From assembly GCA_009783445.1 (NCBI GenBank), contig WRFY01000109.1:1-41397 (forward strand): DNA of 41,397 nt. Direction: 5' to 3'. Origin of the DNA: Candidatus Azobacteroides sp. (GTDB lineage Bacteria; Bacteroidota; Bacteroidia; Bacteroidales; Azobacteroidaceae). Below are positions 7,248-12,920 of the stretch, piece after piece (position 1 is the stretch's first letter; every line of letters starts with the position of its first letter). The position numbers and the translations under genes are program-made. The notes below the pieces were generated by a model, which was not told where the DNA came from, searched no databases, and worked only from the letters and a program-made list of their open reading frames with translations.

Positions 7248-8492
7248 ATGAAAAACGAACAAAAAAACATTTCAACGGCGATATTGAACCAACGATTTCG
7301 GAGAAGAGATAGCCAAGGGGCTATTTCCATGCCTATTTATTCGGGAGCAGCTTTTGAATTTGATACGGCTGAAGAAATGGAAGAGGCTTTTTTGGGAAAA
7401 TCGGGGAAACATACTTATTCCAGAATTTCCAATCCGACAGTTGAAGCTTTTGAAGATCGAATTGTGCACATCAGCGGCGCAAAACACGCAATTGCGCTAT
7501 CTTCTGGGATGGCGGCTATTTCCAATATTTTTATGACGATTGCCTATTCGGGAGCGAATATTGTGACTTCGCCTCATTTATTCGGAAACACTTTTTCTTT
7601 GTTTCTCTTTACCTTAGAGGCTTTCGGCGTCAAAGCGAGATTTTGCAACTTATTGGATTTGGAAGAAGTTGCGCGGAATATCGACGATAAAACTTGTGCC
7701 GTATTCACGGAAATTATTACGAATCCTCAGATGGAAGCAGCCGATTTACAGGCTTTATCCGAATTGGCGCACAGCAAAAAGACCCCTTTGGTAGTCGACT
7801 CTACGGTTGTCCCGTGGCCTGCTTTTGAAGCTCAAAAATGGGGAGTGGATTTAGAGGTGGTATCGAGTACCAAATATATTTCCGGAGGCGCTACCAGCAT
7901 CGGAGGATTAATACTTGATCATCAACGGTTCGACTGGTCGCATTCGCCTCGATTGGAAAAGTTGGTTCAAATGGCCGGCCCCAAAGCTTTTACGGTTAAA
8001 CTCCGGAATGAAATAGCGCGGAACATGGGCGCTTATATGTCTCCTTATACCGCTTATCTACAAAGTTTGGGTTTGGAAACGATGGATTTACGTTTCAAAA
8101 AAGCATCGAATACCTGCAAACAACTGGCGGAGTTTCTGCAAACGCTTTCTCCTGTCAAAAAGGTCTATTATACGGGATTAAAAGGGAATCCCTTTTATGC
8201 AGTCAGTTACAAACAATTTGGGGAATACCCGGGCGCGATGTTGACTTTTACCTTGGAAGATCAGGCGCATTGCTTCGCTTTTATGAACCGATTGCAGATT
8301 ATTCGCCGCGCAACCAACTTGTTTGACAATAAATCGCTCATCATTCATCCGCTTTCTACTATTTACGGAACCCTCAACGACGAATATAAACGAATGGTCA
8401 GCGTTCCTGCCAACCTATTACGCCTCTCGGCAGGATTGGAAGACCTGAACGACTTGAAAAACGATATTCTCCAAGCGCTTCAACTAATGTGA
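7248..8492 (+). CDS. Cys/Met-metabolism PLP-dependent enzyme (O-acetylhomoserine sulfhydrylase-like)
   Basis: This is a 414-residue fold-type I PLP enzyme of the trans-sulfuration family. The motifs are YSRISNPTVEAFEDRI (phosphate/PLP contacts), SSGMAAIS, the Asp of VVDSTVVPWP, and the PLP lysine in SSTKYISGG. Methionine gamma-lyase carries a catalytic cysteine in its YGCT-type loop, whereas this protein reads FGNTF. That argues against a classical methionine gamma-lyase and for a sulfhydrylase/synthase role in homocysteine formation, though specificity in this family is hard to predict. Its 3' end overlaps the convergent WYL regulator by 13 bp. Confidence 0.82.
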   Translation: MKNEQKNISTAILNQRFRRRDSQGAISMPIYSGAAFEFDTAEEMEEAFLGKSGKHTYSRISNPTVEAFEDRIVHISGAKHAIALSSGMAAISNIFMTIAYSGANIVTSPHLFGNTFSLFLFTLEAFGVKARFCNLLDLEEVARNIDDKTCAVFTEIITNPQMEAADLQALSELAHSKKTPLVVDSTVVPWPAFEAQKWGVDLEVVSSTKYISGGATSIGGLILDHQRFDWSHSPRLEKLVQMAGPKAFTVKLRNEIARNMGAYMSPYTAYLQSLGLETMDLRFKKASNTCKQLAEFLQTLSPVKKVYYTGLKGNPFYAVSYKQFGEYPGAMLTFTLEDQAHCFAFMNRLQIIRRATNLFDNKSLIIHPLSTIYGTLNDEYKRMVSVPANLLRLSAGLEDLNDLKNDILQALQLM

Positions 8493-9520
8493 GAAGGGCG
8501 GAATTTGCGTGGATAATTGCCTGCCGCTTTTTCCAGTTTCATTTGCATAAAATCGACTAAATGAGCGGGTTCCAAAACTTGTAGGCCATCGGCAAATCCG
8601 AAAAGTTCGCGTTGCAATTCCGGATTGAGAACGACCTCAATTTCAAAAACGACGCTTCCATCCTCTAAACGTTCGATCAATTGTTGACTTCTATGGAGGG
8701 GTTTGGTGTGGATGTAGGGTGCATCATTGCGGCTTGCGCGGAAGCGGACTTTTTCTGTTGGAGAATGAAGTCCTTTAGTGACTCCTACCAAATCGTCGAA
8801 AAAAGTAGCTGGATCAAAAAAAGTATTTTCAAGAAACGGTTCTTTTTCGGCCGTTTCCAATTGGCAGATGCGATCCAATGCCAGATTTCGTAAGGATCGA
8901 TCTTTCTTCATTACTCCAAAAACGAACCAACGATTGCGGTACTCTTTCAGTAAATAAGGATAAAAAAGGAACGAATTAGCCGAACGGGCTTTGAACGAAC
9001 GATACTTCAGCAACAAAGTCTGCTTGTGGGTAATCGCCTGATAAATTGCATCCAGATGTTCCAAACCTTTCAAACTTTCATTTTTTTCAAAATCAATTAC
9101 AGGAACGGTTTTCTGTTTGACTGAAGCCACATGATCTTCCAAGCGGCTCACAATATCGGTCATTCCGGAGAAATAAGAAAAACTTTTGAATTGCCTCAAT
9201 ACTTCGACCGCTTCCGACATTACGCGCAAATCCTGCTCGGTCAACGGCGTGTGGGTAATGCTGTAATCCGGATCGTCATACCTGTAATATTTATTGTCAT
9301 AAACGGAAATCGGTGCGTTGTAACCCAATTTTTCACTGCGCATGATCTGGATATCCATTTGGATGGCGCGTTTACTGATGCCTTTATCGATTCCTTCGTA
9401 TTCATACAAGGCGTCGGAACAAGCGTCCATCAAGTCTTCCAACGTCCATTGGCGATAGCGGTTGCGTAGACAAGCATCAATTGTTTTGTAGCGGATTAAC
9501 GCATTTCTATTCGCAGGCAT
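8480..9520 (-). CDS. WYL-domain transcriptional regulator
   Basis: The 346-residue protein has an N-terminal winged-helix DNA-binding part (residues 1-75: RYKTIDACLRN, ISKRAIQMDIQIMRSE) and a WYL sensor domain at about 150-240 (LLLKYRSFKARSANSFLFYP then RNRWFVFGVMKK). A C-terminal WCX-like extension follows (VLNPELQRELFGFADGLQVLEP). WYL proteins commonly sense nucleic-acid-derived ligands and control defence or DNA/RNA-damage operons. It is divergent from the TROVE gene with a 132-bp shared control region, so it is the obvious candidate regulator of the RNA-repair operon. That it binds RNA ends is only an inference. Confidence 0.88.
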   Translation of the reverse strand: MPANRNALIRYKTIDACLRNRYRQWTLEDLMDACSDALYEYEGIDKGISKRAIQMDIQIMRSEKLGYNAPISVYDNKYYRYDDPDYSITHTPLTEQDLRVMSEAVEVLRQFKSFSYFSGMTDIVSRLEDHVASVKQKTVPVIDFEKNESLKGLEHLDAIYQAITHKQTLLLKYRSFKARSANSFLFYPYLLKEYRNRWFVFGVMKKDRSLRNLALDRICQLETAEKEPFLENTFFDPATFFDDLVGVTKGLHSPTEKVRFRASRNDAPYIHTKPLHRSQQLIERLEDGSVVFEIEVVLNPELQRELFGFADGLQVLEPAHLVDFMQMKLEKAAGNYPRKFRPSHIS

Positions 9521-9564
9521 AAAAATATTTATTTGTAAATCAAATAATTATTGAAAATTTACAA

Positions 9565-9624
9565 CAAAGATAAAAAATATTTTTCATTGCGCAAAAAGAT
9601 TGCGCAGTCGGTTATTTATCTTTG
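9565..9624. promoter_or_regulatory. Divergent wyl/rsr control region with paired ATTGCGCA repeats
   Basis: The minus-strand wyl promoter is complete: TTTG (9595 to 9592), 19 nt, TATCTTTG (9572 to 9565). The plus-strand rsr promoter has TATCTTTG (9617-9624), 29 bp before its ATG, but no TTTG at 19-21 bp. Between the two -7 boxes lie two direct copies of ATTGCGCA (9586-9593 and 9599-9606, 13-bp period, each with a palindromic TGCGCA core). The first copy overlaps the wyl -33 element. This fits an operator used for autorepression of wyl and activation of rsr; that is inference. Confidence 0.6.
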
Positions 9625-9652
9625 CAATGTCAAACGATAAAAACAAAAAATC

Positions 9653-11167
9653 ATGAAATTTAATGTCAACAAAGAAAAAAATCAGGTTCGGAATTACGAG
9701 AATGCACCGGCCCATCCATTGTCTCCAGAGTGGAATTTATATACTTCTGTGGTTACCTCTTCTTTGAGCGATAAATTTTATGAAAGCGCTTCAGACCGAA
9801 TAGAAAAATTACGCAGGTTAATTCAAGAAAACGATACGCAGTGGGTAGCTCGTTTAGCAATTTATGCTCGCGAACAAATGAATCTTCGCTCGATTCCTTT
9901 GGTATTGGTGGCCGAATTGACGAAAATACATTCAGGGGATGCATTGGTGAGCCGAACGATCACAAGAATTATACAACGCGCGGATGAAATTACGGAATTG
10001 TTGGCTTACTACCAGCTGTCGAACGAGCGGAAGGGAACAAAAAAGCTCAACCGTTTATCGAAACAGTTACAAGCCGGTTTACAAAATGCGTTCAATAAAT
10101 TTGACGAATATCAATTTGCTAAATACAACCGAGAAGGGGAGATAAAGTTGAAAGACGCTTTGTTTTTGGTTCACCCGAAAGCAAAAGATGAAGAGCAACA
10201 ATCCATTTTCAACAAAATAGCTACCGACTCTTTGCAAACGCCCTATACGTGGGAAACCGAATTGTCGGCTTTAGGACAAAACAAGTTTGAATCGGAAGAA
10301 GCGAAAAAAGCGGCTTTCACTCAAAAATGGGAAGAACTAATTGAAAGCGGAAAAGTGGGCTATATGGCTTTGTTGCGGAATTTGCGCAACCTATTGGAAG
10401 CGGAAGTTTCTTTGAATCATATCCATCGCGTTTGCGAAACAGTAAGTTCCAAAGAAAAAGTACGTACATCCAAGCAATTGCCTTTCCGCTTTCTGGCAGC
10501 ATACCGGGAATTATCGAAAATTAATTCCGGTTATGCTTCCCAAGTAATGAATGCGTTGGAAGAAGCCGTAAAAATTTCGGCCGAAAATATAAACGGTTTT
10601 GATGAATCGACCAAAGTAGTGGTTGCCTGTGATGTTTCGGGTTCCATGCAGCGTCCGATTTCTCCCAAAAGCAAAGTGATGAACTACGACATCGGATTGA
10701 TGTTGGGCATGTTGTTGAAATCCCGCTGTAAGAATGTCGTTTCCGGCCTATTCGGAGATACTTGGAAAATCGTCAATCTCCCGAATAACGGAATCTTATC
10801 GAATGTGGACGCTTTTTACAAACGAGAAGGCGAAGTCGGATATTCTACAAACGGATACTTGGTAATCCAAGACTTAATTGACAGAAAAAAGGAAATGGAT
10901 AAAATCATGCTCTTTACCGATTGTCAATTGTGGAACAGCAAGGGAGGAAATATCCAATTGAAAGAGGTCTGGAAAAAATATAAAACGATTGCCCCGAAGG
11001 CCAAATTGTATTTGTTCGATTTAGCCGGATATGGGCAGACTCCATTGGATATTACAAACGATGATGTGTATCTGATTGCCGGATGGTCGGATAAGATATT
11101 CAATATTTTATCGGCTATAGAGAACGGAAGCGACGCTTTAAAAGAGATTAAAGCGATAGAAATATAA
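9653..11167 (+). CDS. rsr: TROVE-domain Ro60/Rsr-like RNA-binding protein
   Basis: The protein has 504 residues. Residues 1 to about 300 form the alpha-helical TROVE ring (for example WVARLAIYAREQMNLRSIPLVL, the segment YMALLRNLRNLLEAEV and LPFRFLAAYREL). Residues 320-504 form a von Willebrand A domain with an intact metal site, DVSGSM at 327-332. Ro/Rsr proteins bind 3' ends of misfolded or damaged RNAs in the ring and Y RNAs on its surface. In Deinococcus, Rsr with a Y RNA directs PNPase. Here it is the first gene after the divergent promoter, and is followed within ten bases by the Y-RNA-like array and then rtcB, which together form an RNA-repair operon. Length and domain order match bacterial Rsr. 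Confidence 0.93.
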   Translation: MKFNVNKEKNQVRNYENAPAHPLSPEWNLYTSVVTSSLSDKFYESASDRIEKLRRLIQENDTQWVARLAIYAREQMNLRSIPLVLVAELTKIHSGDALVSRTITRIIQRADEITELLAYYQLSNERKGTKKLNRLSKQLQAGLQNAFNKFDEYQFAKYNREGEIKLKDALFLVHPKAKDEEQQSIFNKIATDSLQTPYTWETELSALGQNKFESEEAKKAAFTQKWEELIESGKVGYMALLRNLRNLLEAEVSLNHIHRVCETVSSKEKVRTSKQLPFRFLAAYRELSKINSGYASQVMNALEEAVKISAENINGFDESTKVVVACDVSGSMQRPISPKSKVMNYDIGLMLGMLLKSRCKNVVSGLFGDTWKIVNLPNNGILSNVDAFYKREGEVGYSTNGYLVIQDLIDRKKEMDKIMLFTDCQLWNSKGGNIQLKEVWKKYKTIAPKAKLYLFDLAGYGQTPLDITNDDVYLIAGWSDKIFNILSAIENGSDALKEIKAIEI

Positions 11168-11175
11168 ATAGAAAA

Positions 11176-11310
11176 AGAAGCAAGCGCCGTAGATAAGGGT
11201 TACTTCGGAATATTACTCCCCAGGCCGCAGGTTCAATTCCTGCCATCGCAAGATGTAGCTCAGCAGGTTAGAGCAGGATATGTCTCTTGTCGCTTTTTGC
11301 CTTGCTTTTT
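11176..11310 (+). ncRNA. Y RNA-like (YrlA-type) tRNA mimic, copy 1
   Basis: Hand-folded. The outer stem is 11178-11184 with 11301-11307, running into a T5 tract. The asymmetric loop is CGCCGTA (11185-11191) against GCTTTTTGC (11292-11300). The inner 8-bp stem is 11192-11199 with 11284-11291, followed by a CTTCGG motif. The apical module is a tRNA elbow in permuted order: T-arm GCAGG-TTCAATT-CCTGC (11227-11243), the mini-helix CATC-GCAA-GATG (11244-11255, GNRA cap), TA, then D-arm GCTC-AGCAGGTTA-GAGC (11258-11274). After rotation it reads as a tRNA whose acceptor is closed by the tetraloop. Weak pairing of 11276-11280 with 11214-11219 would form a split anticodon stem. It starts 10 nt after the Rsr stop codon. 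Confidence 0.88.
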
Positions 11311-11317
11311 CAGAAAT

Positions 11318-11446
11318 AGAGTGAGCGCCGTAAATAAGAGTTACTTCGGTAGAGCAGAACTTAGGTTTGTGTCGAAGGTTCAATTCCTTCCATCGTAAGA
11401 TGTAGCTCAGTTAAACAGTCTCTTGTTGTTTTTTGCCTCGCTTTTT
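11318..11446 (+). ncRNA. Y RNA-like tRNA mimic, copy 2 (joint inside the D-loop)
   Basis: It has the same plan as copy 1. The outer stem is 11321-11325 with 11437-11441, followed by T5. The loop is CGCCGTA (11326-11332) against GTTTTTTGC (11428-11436). The inner stem is 11333-11340 with 11420-11427, with compensated changes relative to copy 1. The T-arm is GAAGG-TTCAATT-CCTTC (11374-11390), and the mini-helix is CATC-GTAA-GATG (11391-11402). The D-arm is split: TAGCTCAGTT (11403-11412) lies 3' while GGTAGAGC (11348-11355) lies 5'. Rejoined they give the canonical tRNA D-arm, with GCTC 11405-11408 pairing GAGC 11352-11355. A small GAAC-TTAG-GTTT hairpin (11357-11368) sits at the anticodon-arm position. 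Confidence 0.85.
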
Positions 11447-11450
11447 AAAA

Positions 11451-11481
11451 TACATAAGATGCCGTATAGAATTATAATTTG
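11451..11481 (+). ncRNA. 5' remnant of a fifth Y RNA-like copy
   Basis: TACATAAGATGCCGTA (11451-11466) differs at one of 16 positions from the 5' end of copy 4 (11629-11644), including the GCCGTA loop motif. No T-arm or 3' strand follows. The AT-rich stretch just after it (ATTATAATTTG) is also near a -7 box and could instead be reused as a promoter for copy 3. Confidence 0.45.
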
Positions 11482-11486
11482 AAAAT

Positions 11487-11627
11487 AAAACAGAATGTCG
11501 TAGAAAAGGGATACTTCGGTAACCATTTTAGGGGAGGAATAGTGAGGTCGTAAAATCGGCGAGACTATCCGGTTCGATTCCGGTATACCATGCCCTGTTT
11601 CTCTTTTCGCCTGTTACTTCTGTTTTT
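11487..11627 (+). ncRNA. Y RNA-like RNA, copy 3 (diverged tRNA-like module)
   Basis: The outer 9-bp stem is 11487-11495 with 11618-11626, ending in T5. The loop is TGTCGTA (11496-11502) against GCCTGTTAC (11609-11617). The GT/AC pairing in this loop replaces the GC/GC of copies 1 and 2, which is compensatory. The inner 8-bp stem is 11503-11510 with 11601-11608, again covarying. The ACTTCGG motif is kept. The T-arm is CCGG-TTCGATT-CCGG (11570-11584). A D-arm-like hairpin (GTC 11547-11549 with GAC 11563-11565, GG in the loop) lies upstream of the T-arm, so the order is not permuted and the GNRA mini-helix is absent. Confidence 0.78.
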
Positions 11628-11630
11628 ATA

Positions 11631-11724
11631 CATGAGATGCCGTAATGAAGGGTTCCTTCGCAAGTGGTCTCCGCCGGTTCGAATCCGGTCAAAAGTTCCT
11701 TCATGCTTGTCGCTCTCATTTTTT
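11631..11724 (+). ncRNA. Y RNA-like RNA, copy 4 (short, T-arm only)
   Basis: The shortest copy. The outer stem is 11632-11637 with 11714-11719, followed by T6. The loop is TGCCGTA (11638-11644) against GCTTGTCGC (11705-11713), the same 7/9-nt geometry as the others. The inner stem is 11645-11652 with 11697-11704. The T-arm is GCCGG-TTCGAAT-CCGGT (11673-11689). No D-arm or GNRA mini-helix is visible. It ends 23 bp before rtcB. Confidence 0.75.
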
Positions 11725-11747
11725 ACAATAATTAATTACAAATCACT

Positions 11748-12920
11748 ATGCAAAAAGTTATTTCAACGGAACGACTGCCTATCAAAATATGGTTGGATGA
11801 GGCAGAAGAAGGTTCCATCAAGCAAGCGAAAAATCTGGCCAATCTGCCTTTTGCCTTCAAACATATATGTTTAATGCCCGATACGCATGAAGGGTACGGG
11901 ATGCCTATCGGCGGAGTTTTGGCAACACGAGGAGTAATTATTCCCAATGCTGTGGGCGTGGACATCGGTTGCGGCATGTGCGCCGTAAAAACAAACATTC
12001 CGGCAGAAACCGTATCCAAAGAACAATTGAAGCAAATCATGAGCGGTATCCGCGAGCAGATTCCTTTGGGTTTTGACCATCACAAGGAACGTCAAGACGA
12101 AAGTTTAATGCCGCAAGATTTTAATTTGGAAGAGCTTCCGGTAGTAAAAAATCAATATTTAGCGGCATTGAAACAAATCGGCACATTGGGCGGAGGCAAT
12201 CATTTTATTGAATTGCAACGCTGCGGGGAAGGATATTTATGGATCATGATTCATTCGGGAAGCCGTAACTTGGGCAAGCAAGTGGCCGATTATTACAATC
12301 GTATGGCTAAAAAACTGAATGAACGTTGGTTTTCGTCTGTTTCTCTCCAAGCGGATTTGGCATTTTTGCCATTTAAAACCGATGAAGCCCTGCATTATTA
12401 CAAAGAAATGCGTTATTGCATCGAATTTGCATTTGCCAATCGAAAATTGATGACGCAACGGATTCAACAAGTTGTTTCGACTGTATTACAATCTGTTGCA
12501 TACGAACCCATTATTAATATCGCTCATAATTATGCCGCATGGGAGGAACATTTTGGCGAAAAAGTAGTGGTTCATCGCAAAGGGGCAACGTCCGCCAAAG
12601 CCGGAGAAACCGGGATTATTCCGGGTTCACAGGGAACTAAATCCTATATTGTGGAAGGTTTGGGAAATCCTGAAAGTTTTATGAGCTGTTCGCATGGCGC
12701 GGGGCGGGTAATGAGTCGTTCCGCTGCCGTTCGCAACTTGGATTTGGGGGCTGAAATACGCAAATTAGACGATTTGGGCATTATTCACTCCATTCGCGGA
12801 AAATCGGATTTGGAGGAAGCAACATCGGCATACAAAGATATTTTGCAAGTCATAGCGTTTCAATCGGATTTAGTGAAGATAAAAGTAGAACTGAGTCCGC
12901 TTGCGGTGATTAAGGGATAA
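11748..12920 (+). CDS. rtcB: RNA-splicing ligase RtcB (3'-phosphate RNA ligase)
   Basis: The 390-residue ligase joins RNA 2',3'-cyclic-phosphate or 3'-phosphate ends to 5'-OH ends using GTP and Mn2+. Signature motifs are MPDTHEGYGMPIGGV (about 43), DIGCGM with the metal-binding Cys (about 71-76), GTLGGGNHF (about 145-152), HNYA (about 265), HRKGAT (about 276) and SCSHGAGR (about 312-319), all intact. The guanylated His is elsewhere in the family pattern. No RtcA cyclase or archease is encoded nearby. Its position after rsr and the Y RNA array points to repair of cleaved tRNAs or rRNA. The U tracts of the RNA genes upstream may attenuate its expression. Confidence 0.96.
   Translation: MQKVISTERLPIKIWLDEAEEGSIKQAKNLANLPFAFKHICLMPDTHEGYGMPIGGVLATRGVIIPNAVGVDIGCGMCAVKTNIPAETVSKEQLKQIMSGIREQIPLGFDHHKERQDESLMPQDFNLEELPVVKNQYLAALKQIGTLGGGNHFIELQRCGEGYLWIMIHSGSRNLGKQVADYYNRMAKKLNERWFSSVSLQADLAFLPFKTDEALHYYKEMRYCIEFAFANRKLMTQRIQQVVSTVLQSVAYEPIINIAHNYAAWEEHFGEKVVVHRKGATSAKAGETGIIPGSQGTKSYIVEGLGNPESFMSCSHGAGRVMSRSAAVRNLDLGAEIRKLDDLGIIHSIRGKSDLEEATSAYKDILQVIAFQSDLVKIKVELSPLAVIKG

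Follow-up and report, generated by a model that had tools for sequence, protein, structure and literature searches.

The window analysed here, 41,397 nt of a Candidatus Azobacteroides contig, holds an island whose layout is confirmed: a wyl gene divergent from rsr, four units that resemble Y RNAs, and rtcB. We think it fairly probable that the island is one RNA-damage response, in which a WYL-controlled Rsr particle carries a four-headed set of Y RNAs and RtcB does the resealing. The roles of bacterial Y RNAs, and their presence in RNA-repair operons, are largely unexplained. The study of the Salmonella operon states that it left Y RNA roles aside (PMC7790460). A constant handle with four heads at one small locus is a natural domain-swap series for the recruitment of partners and substrates, and the palindrome between wyl and rsr is a concrete candidate site for WYL control of RNA repair.

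Genes of the island

The initial annotation placed a WYL gene divergent from a TROVE gene, and the Pfam matches bear this out (Table 1). The WYL-WCX protein has no Pfam match for an HTH, and a PDB sequence search with it as query gave no match. We infer that its N-terminus binds DNA.

Table 1. Features of the island, with positions in the window.
Feature	Position	Strand	Evidence or remark
WYL-WCX regulator gene	8480..9520	-	divergent from rsr; Pfam WYL 45.9 bits, WCX 52.2 bits
palindrome TGCGCAAAAAGATTGCGCA (TGCGCAA-N5-TTGCGCA), predicted WYL operator	9588..9606	.	sole match in window
TATCTTTG, predicted -7-type promoter element of rsr	9617..9624	+	sequence
rsr, TROVE/Ro60-like protein gene	9653..11167	+	Pfam TROVE 102 bits, cut-off 23
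Y unit 1, YrlA-order head	11178..11307	+	R1 E 1.6e-13
Y unit 2, cloverleaf opened in D-loop	11319..11443	+	R1 E 3.3e-12
probable handle 5'-half remnant	11450..11480	+	86% like unit 4 start over 22 nt
Y unit 3, type II head (T-arm domain + pseudoknot)	11489..11624	+	R1 E 9.1e-15
Y unit 4, short T-arm head	11631..11720	+	R1 E 1.6e-10; T-arm 11674-11688
rtcB homologue	11748..12920	+	Pfam RtcB 383 bits

Judged by its sequence, the rsr product is a TROVE/Ro60-like protein outside the NCBIfam Rsr equivalog NF041674, against which it scores 21.6 bits with a cut-off of 900. Its profile recovers Ro60 (E 1.8e-6) and Rsr (E 6e-4) from the PDB. The Ro60 vWA model gives 26.9 bits, just below the cut-off of 27.7. 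The sequence contains DVSGS, which we take to be the vWA metal-site motif. In the rtcB product DIGCG, GGGNHF, HSGSR, AHN and HGAGR are presumably the catalytic residues of RtcB, and the homologue likely retains them. These motifs align with the solved RtcB 1uc2.

There is no ORF of at least 100 aa on the rsr/rtcB strand between the two genes, in keeping with the proposed lack of another protein gene there. A 102-aa ORF lies on the minus strand at 11732-12040 and overlaps rtcB. RtcA, archease and RtcR are all missing from the whole genome (99.85% complete). This extends the reported absence of the first two beyond the window, and with neither RtcR nor RtcA the genome does not have the RtcR-controlled rtcBA operon type.

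Y units and their shared handle

A covariance model built solely from other genomes (R1) has exactly four matches in the window, with E values from 1.6e-10 to 9e-15. They fall where four tandem structured RNAs had been claimed, at 11176-11724. Their spans of 130, 125, 136 and 90 nt roughly match the earlier estimate of 95-140 nt, with unit 4 slightly below it. The units occupy the stretch from 10 to 553 nt past rsr, unit 1 beginning 10 nt from the rsr stop.

The handle consists of a 7-bp stem, a single bulge, a CGUA/7-nt internal loop, an 8-bp stem and UUACUUCG. The bulge is U in 182 of 190 units and C in 7. The handle alignment, which omits one (L017_369) of 76 selected handles, was selected partly by pairing, so its pair counts lean towards structure. 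The swap control is independent of that selection: of 283 motifs chosen by their 5' side, 248 have the 3' partner, compared with 37 of 849 after swapping. This rules out chance repeats as the source of the units. A covariance search of the kind suggested at the outset finds the handle, with its helices conserved, in related Bacteroidota loci.

Three features of bacterial Y RNAs are present. The units have a lower stem formed from both ends, with a bulge. They lie next to rsr, in relatives as in the window. A tRNA-like domain, which one or more of a species' Y RNAs should have (reportedly a criterion of Chen 2014), is found in units 1 and 2. In single-sequence folding the energies of the RNA units do not stand out (z from -0.35 to -1.73 over five folds). 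At gathering score Rfam 15 reports a tmRNA as its only match in the window and only tRNAs in 13 related loci. For the window and these 13 loci, the handle model, the D-loop-open head and the pseudoknot head are searchable RNA families unrecognised by Rfam 15 at that score.

Distribution of the arrays

The initial annotation considered such an array not well described in Bacteroidota. It is not peculiar to this locus: at least three handle motifs follow rsr in 66 of 81 Bacteroidota loci. All 189 model matches in 80 loci are on the rsr strand. The relatives used are the best 80 of 573, at 60-83% identity, and represent the near part of the family. One early count included the window twice, as L001, and an early place-and-strand count took in both L002 and L012, apparently one contig; L001 and L012 were later dropped. 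Strict handle motifs are absent downstream of rsr in 6 of the 81 loci. L006, L013 and L014, which lack them there, do give model matches, that of L006 lying upstream.

Among 198 whole genomes, some of which may double as training loci, the model has a match in 12. The scan used strict filters that recovered just 1 of the 4 window units. Eleven of the 12 have rsr, and in every one of these the matches are downstream of it on the same strand; the other (G125) has a weak match and no rsr. Overall rsr occurs in 15 of the 198 genomes, 4 of them with no model match. Within the genus just 2 of 34 genomes have it, this one included.

Heads of the four units

The four RNAs had been described as tRNA-like. 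Several different units do accompany Rsr, but they do not share one YrlA-like form: a common handle bears four head architectures, and only one has the YrlA order. A uniform YrlA array is ruled out by these four types.

Unit 1 is the one with that order. It has a T-arm (11227-11243), a capped acceptor hairpin (11244-11255) and a D-arm (11256-11274), and its MFE contains all three. Against Rfam YrlA RF02553 it scores 34.9 bits, the best in the window, with a gathering cut-off of 69. In unit 2 the order is D 3' half (11349-11355), small hairpin (11357-11368), T-arm (11374-11390), capped acceptor (11391-11402) and D 5' half (11403-11410). The cloverleaf is visible in its MFE. In unit 3 a pseudoknot pairs GGTA (11518-11521) with TACC (11586-11589), GGGG (11531-11534) pairs with CCCT (11593-11596), and a T-arm occupies 11569-11583. 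The MFE of unit 3 has neither pseudoknot nor T-arm, and that of unit 4 lacks its T-arm. The pseudoknot covaries (23 of 27 distinct rows, 11 helix types; swapped, 50 of 486), and the head that contains it is conserved in 37 loci.

Relatives mix heads as well. With head types assigned through patterns, 51 of 55 loci that have two or more called units have at least two types. The D-loop-open head occurs in 8 of 81 loci under a looser pattern (9 units) and in 5 units under a stricter count. By eye, about 5 of the 9 have the full cloverleaf as MFE. A 23S rRNA stretch lies within a head at two loci.

The palindrome and proposed WYL control

That a WYL protein stands in place of RtcR agrees both with the RtcR-less genome and with a conserved palindrome before rsr. 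All 45 loci where a WYL homologue lies nearby, the window among them, have the palindrome ahead of rsr, as do 20 of the 33 loci that lack such a neighbour; 3 of 81 loci were skipped for having less than 250 nt upstream. From this co-occurrence the palindrome is a predicted WYL binding site. Since 20 loci retain it without a nearby WYL homologue, another protein could also bind it. In 26 of 67 loci WYL is missing within 3.5 kb.

Many flavobacteria have the palindrome additionally ahead of the Y array and of rtcB, and their arrays are preceded by their own palindrome and TTTG element. There are 17 sites directly past the rsr stop, and 11 of 32 loci with rtcB have a site within 450 nt upstream of it. 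In the genome studied here a degenerate palindrome is not enriched (3 and 4 matches, control 2 and 2). The -7-type promoter consensus is TAnnTTTG, and 48 of 65 loci have their first TTTG 13-14 nt past the palindrome. A sigma70-type scan gave zero terminators and 3 promoter-like sites where 1.3 are expected. We prefer repression as the sign of regulation, lifted by a damage signal, because the palindrome occupies the position expected for a -33 element.

Proposed mechanism and alternatives

In the scenario that we favour, the WYL protein would act at the palindrome and govern synthesis of the Rsr particle, and an RNA-damage signal would lift its repression. The array would be transcribed and processed into the predicted Y RNAs. 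Their common covarying handle is predicted to dock on Rsr, while the differing T-arm heads would recruit or sort partners of the tRNA type. RtcB would reseal cleaved RNA, perhaps handed over by Rsr and its Y RNAs. The RNA-repair context first proposed for the window holds among relatives: RtcB is within 3.5 kb in 31 of 74 loci, and single loci have Pnkp/Hen1, RlaP, or an ATP-grasp RNA ligase with Thg1.

The strongest competitor is RNA decay of the RYPER kind, which we hold to be a serious possibility though not the likelier one. Here the Y RNAs would tether Rsr to the exonuclease PNPase and control the entry of structured or damaged RNA into it, and RtcB would be a neighbour that belongs to the same regulon but acts separately. 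This is established for the Rsr and Y RNA of Deinococcus in the accessible parts of the work on it (PMC4726728, PMC8394870). PNPase is encoded in this genome, and 43 of the 74 arrays have no nearby RtcB. However, decay explains neither the variety of heads nor the company of RtcB, Pnkp/Hen1, RlaP or Thg1.

It is less plausible that the heads are decoys, mimics of tRNA parts that would occupy RNases or other enzymes with affinity for tRNA and leave the repair of cut RNA to RtcB. The accessible parts of the Salmonella paper suggest this for YrlA (PMC7790460), and it would suit the several opened tRNA architectures and the 23S rRNA stretch. But the anticodon-like hairpin of unit 2 and several relatives has a tetraloop and so no classical anticodon-nuclease site, and a handle for Rsr would be superfluous.

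Still more improbable is that the units are processing or attenuation elements inside a single rsr-rtcB transcript. A T run of at least four ends 102 of 190 units as against 27 of 1069 insert pieces, and the short distance from the rsr stop to unit 1 fits too. Yet some arrays have no rtcB, the covariation of handle and heads is that of self-contained folds, and the flavobacterial arrays have an upstream palindrome and TTTG to themselves. Decayed tRNA genes from a mobile element, for which one could cite the T-arms and D-arms and the tRNA runs that adjoin rsr (8 of the 55 loci scanned, and some viral contigs), are ruled out by a handle conserved with compensation, besides the permuted arm order and the conserved pseudoknot head.

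The damage response that we favour can be generalised, though only tentatively. Rsr particles of the Bacteroidota may use one handle with interchangeable heads, each of which would direct Rsr, along with the repair enzymes under WYL control, to its own kind of broken RNA. The heads would then be a tRNA body with the anticodon stem (unit 1) or the D-loop (unit 2) as its point of opening, one with its acceptor rebuilt with a pseudoknot (unit 3), and one reduced to the T-arm (unit 4), with the 23S rRNA piece as a further variant in some relatives.

Comparison with known systems

Among the matches listed, with most subscription papers outside the scope, we recognised no description of the D-loop-open head, the pseudoknot head or the palindrome. 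The papers cited below are compared by their accessible parts. The Salmonella rsr-yrlBA-rtcBA operon likewise encodes Rsr, Y RNAs and RtcB together, and control by an RNA-damage signal, shown there, is likely for the island (PMC7790460). The island differs in having WYL instead of RtcR and sigma54, no RtcA, and four Y units, each with a head type of its own. YrlA (RF02553) matches unit 1 in its order of T-arm, capped hairpin and D-arm, and its 3' handle consensus CUUGUCGCC recurs in Bacteroidota units. However, the window stays under the gathering score, its 5' handle is another one, and it has three further head types. At that score YrlA has no match in the 13 related loci.

Deinococcus RYPER has in common an Rsr-type protein, a Y RNA built on a handle stem, and PNPase (PMC4726728, PMC8394870), the last being encoded in this genome; the array, WYL and RtcB set the island apart. 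The lower stem of vertebrate Y RNA is likewise a 7-bp helix with one bulged nucleotide on one strand and unpaired bases on the other (PMC4726728), but here the bulge is mostly U, the opposite loop has 7 nt and the heads are unrelated. Jumbo-phage RNA repair sets also bring together a TROVE protein, RNA ligases and tRNAs (PMC7824862), whereas the island sits in a bacterial genome and has WYL. In 33 viral rsr loci, two of them with a shorter upstream stretch, the 450 nt ahead of rsr contain no palindrome.

The island and its shared handle

The island is flanked by ordinary-looking genes, one for a Cys/Met-metabolism enzyme before it and one for a rhomboid protease after it. The TROVE/Ro60-like gene, rsr, is rare in the genus (2 of 34 genomes, this one included). 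The nearest solved structures to its protein are PDB 9l5y and 9kop (E 1.2e-27), chains of about 500 aa described as 'TROVE domain-containing protein'. The 580-nt gap between rsr and rtcB is without an ORF of at least 100 aa on their strand. ARAGORN and Rfam at gathering score match nothing in this stretch; at a relaxed threshold Rfam's YrlA model scores unit 1 at 34.9 bits and unit 2 at 19.2 bits (cut-off 69). Repeats within the stretch hinted at four copies.

Coordinates of features in the window and in other rsr loci (L numbers; G000 is the window's own genome)
Feature	Position	Strand	Remark
WYL-WCX protein gene	8480-9520	-	domain matches
Divergent wyl/rsr promoter region	between 9520 and 9653		132 nt
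Palindrome TGCGCAAAAAGATTGCGCA	9588-9606		wyl-rsr gap; sole match to degenerate palindrome in window
TROVE protein gene (rsr)	9653-11167	+
Y units 1, 2, 3, 4	11178-11307, 11319-11443, 11489-11624, 11631-11720	+
RtcB homologue gene	11748-12920	+
Second RtcB gene	G000:C71:16128-17171
Y array, then Hen1 and Pnkp ligase genes	L030 7267-11189		Pontibacter
RlaP	L017 5682-6431; L035 7959-8735		directly after rtcB or array
Loci with tRNA runs	L026, L029, L050, L055, L056, L060, L061, L068		ARAGORN
Viral Y units	L087 6540-6993; L085 and L086 4856-4958		model matches

Relatives were taken from 80 Bacteroidota loci found by Rsr alignment (the best 80 of 573) plus L002, a locus from the genome set. Downstream of rsr (196 kb from 82 loci, one an apparent duplicate) the 5' motif G[CT]CGT-N8-20-TACTTC was counted 292 times; 659 kb of other sequence hold 17 copies and the opposite strand of 856 kb holds 12. 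With the duplicate removed, the motif is present in 75 of 81 loci, three times or more in 66. When motifs were chosen by this 5' side alone, a two-stem handle could be completed from the locus's own 3' flank in 248 of 283, whereas flanks swapped between loci gave one in only 37 of 849. The initial annotation had named a lack of helix conservation in relatives as one ground for refuting it; the helices of the handle are conserved.

The lower part of this handle, the base common to the Y units, is a 7-bp stem region with a bulged base, U in 182 and C in 7 of the 190 called handles, and a two-pair step. Above it come an asymmetric internal loop, CGUA opposite usually 7 nt, and a stem that in most cases is 8 or 9 bp long. 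Called handles carry UUACUUCG or near variants, and base 2 of the core covaries with its partner (C-G 113, U-A 66, U-G 11; n=190). A covariance model of 75 handles, none taken from the window, matches the four Y units and, with E values as high as 10 allowed, nothing else in the 41 kb; these are the four tandem structured RNAs claimed after rsr. Run on the Bacteroidota rsr loci, the model gives 189 matches in 80 loci, every one on the strand of rsr. At 11450-11480, in the gap before unit 3, is a probable remnant of the 5' half of a handle. It resembles the beginning of unit 4 (86% over 22 nt) and is probably a decayed fifth unit.

Of 198 whole genomes, 12 have a model match, 15 have a match to the Rsr protein and 11 have both. 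In these 11 the RNA matches lie downstream of rsr on the same strand within about 1.8 kb, as read from coordinates; in one of them what matches rsr is a fragment interrupted by a stop. The model finds nothing in four rsr genomes, and another genome has a weak match (E 4.3e-4) without rsr. Viral rsr contigs also bear Y units, with 16 model matches in 33 loci.

Head architectures

The heads of 190 called units from 75 of 81 loci were typed by pattern. The YrlA order (T-arm, capped acceptor, D-arm) is found in 59, a D-loop-opened head in 5 and type II in 32; a further 33 have a T-arm in another setting, 58 have none and 3 are unclear. Types are mixed in 51 of the 55 loci having two or more called units. 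The window array has one each of Ia (YrlA order), Ib (D-loop-open), II (pseudoknot) and III (short T-arm). The description of four tRNA-like RNAs is right that four units are present, but their heads are of four types and only one has the YrlA order.

From 5' to 3', the head of unit 2 is the 3' half of a D-arm, a small hairpin in the place of the anticodon arm, a T-arm, an acceptor stem capped by GUAA and the 5' half of the D-arm. This order implies that the handle enters via the D-loop. The whole-unit minimum-energy fold shows this D-loop-open cloverleaf. A looser search raises the count to 9, from 8 of the 81 loci. Judged by eye, the full cloverleaf is the minimum-energy fold in about 5 of the 9 (the window, L029, L048, L060 and one of L081), and is absent or partial in the rest.

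The type of unit 3 is strongly conserved (37 loci by pattern). It has GGGG/CCCC, an arm and a T-arm, and a short strand after ACUUC pairs with another 3' of the T-arm, crossing GGGG/CCCC as a pseudoknot. The crossing pairs are GGUA/UACC in the window, GUC/GAC in flavobacteria, and GAC/GUC, GUU/AAC, AGC/GCU and others elsewhere. Of 27 distinct rows, 23 pair at all 3 positions; when strands are exchanged between rows whose triplets differ, 50 of 486 combinations do. We infer that this pairing may build an acceptor-like stem on the T-arm. The minimum-energy fold of unit 3, by a method that ignores pseudoknots, has neither the crossing pair nor the T-arm.

Two loci (L068 9831-10213, L052 about 7989-8230) have Y-handle units whose head carries a stretch of 23S rRNA and is not tRNA-like. 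L068:9850-9910 is 97% identical to E. coli 23S rRNA over 34 nt (E 5e-6), and the 18-nt core is found in 2 of 84 loci.

The palindrome

The fixed-spacing palindrome has four places in the whole genome, not above the reversed-control level; by eye, both arms are full only in the window copy. The degenerate palindrome has 83 matches in 34.9 kb of sequence upstream of rsr vs 48 in 800 kb elsewhere. Every one of the 45 loci that have a WYL homologue no more than 2.5 kb away, the window among them, has such a palindrome in the 450 nt before rsr; of the 33 loci lacking such a homologue, 20 do. RtcR was not found in the window's genome, which together with the 45 of 45 supports the suggestion that a WYL protein stands in its place. 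The first TTTG follows the rsr-nearest palindrome by 13-14 nt in 48 of 65 loci, and a TTTG stands at 5-6 nt in 15. Where wyl and rsr are close, 15 of 25 loci have a second copy nearer wyl. Sixteen flavobacterial loci have a copy 13-14 nt past the rsr stop, ahead of the Y array. Among the 32 loci whose rtcB is no more than 3.5 kb away, 11 show a copy in the 450 nt preceding that gene. Palindromes at rsr, array and rtcB point to one regulator for all, a more direct tie than gene order. L007 has the palindrome and TTTG element (2762) before a WYL gene 2.3 kb from rsr. The 33 viral loci have no palindrome within 450 nt upstream of rsr, two of them containing less upstream sequence.

RNA-repair neighbours

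An RtcB homologue follows rsr on the same strand within 3.5 kb in 31 of 74 loci. Most are 35-38% identical to the window's RtcB, which implies that different RtcB types have been joined to the array. The window's RtcB retains its likely catalytic residues. The contig of the second RtcB gene has no match to the fixed-spacing palindrome. RtcA and archease, already noted as absent, were not found in the whole genome either.

Twenty neighbour proteins from 9 loci were scanned, many of them unrelated. In L030, where an rtcB homologue lies upstream of rsr, they include Hen1 and Pnkp ligase, and in two loci RlaP, of the RNA repair pathway polymerase-beta family. L029 has an ATP-grasp RNA ligase and Thg1 beside runs of tRNA genes, and L026 a ligase and tRNAs. 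In 8 of the 55 loci scanned, rsr and the Y units have at least 3 ARAGORN tRNA genes next to them on the strand of rsr, though a few calls may be Y heads. Perhaps these runs are spare tRNAs produced along with the repair enzymes.

Proposed mechanism and known systems

We argue that the best reading of the island is an RNA-damage response, on the basis of sequence, predicted structure and co-occurrence. The WYL protein would occupy the palindrome, and a damage signal would alter its hold. The analogy is RtcR in Salmonella, with tRNA fragments as the damage signal (PMC7790460). Rsr, Y RNAs and RtcB would then be produced. Rsr would bind the handle common to all units, the varied heads would serve as adaptors to tRNA-recognising partners or substrates, and RtcB would reseal RNA. 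Two rivals are live: decay with PNPase, as in RYPER, the Deinococcus Rsr/Y RNA/PNPase particle, and heads acting as nuclease decoys.

One study reportedly identified Y RNAs in over 250 species. Bacterial Y RNAs, the tRNA mimicry of YrlA and Rsr-RtcB operons are already known (PMC7790460, PMC8394870, PMC4726728). As far as our literature searches reach, the Bacteroidota handle model and the palindrome are new, and so are the heads opened in the D-loop, the pseudoknotted heads and the finding that arrays are as a rule mixed.
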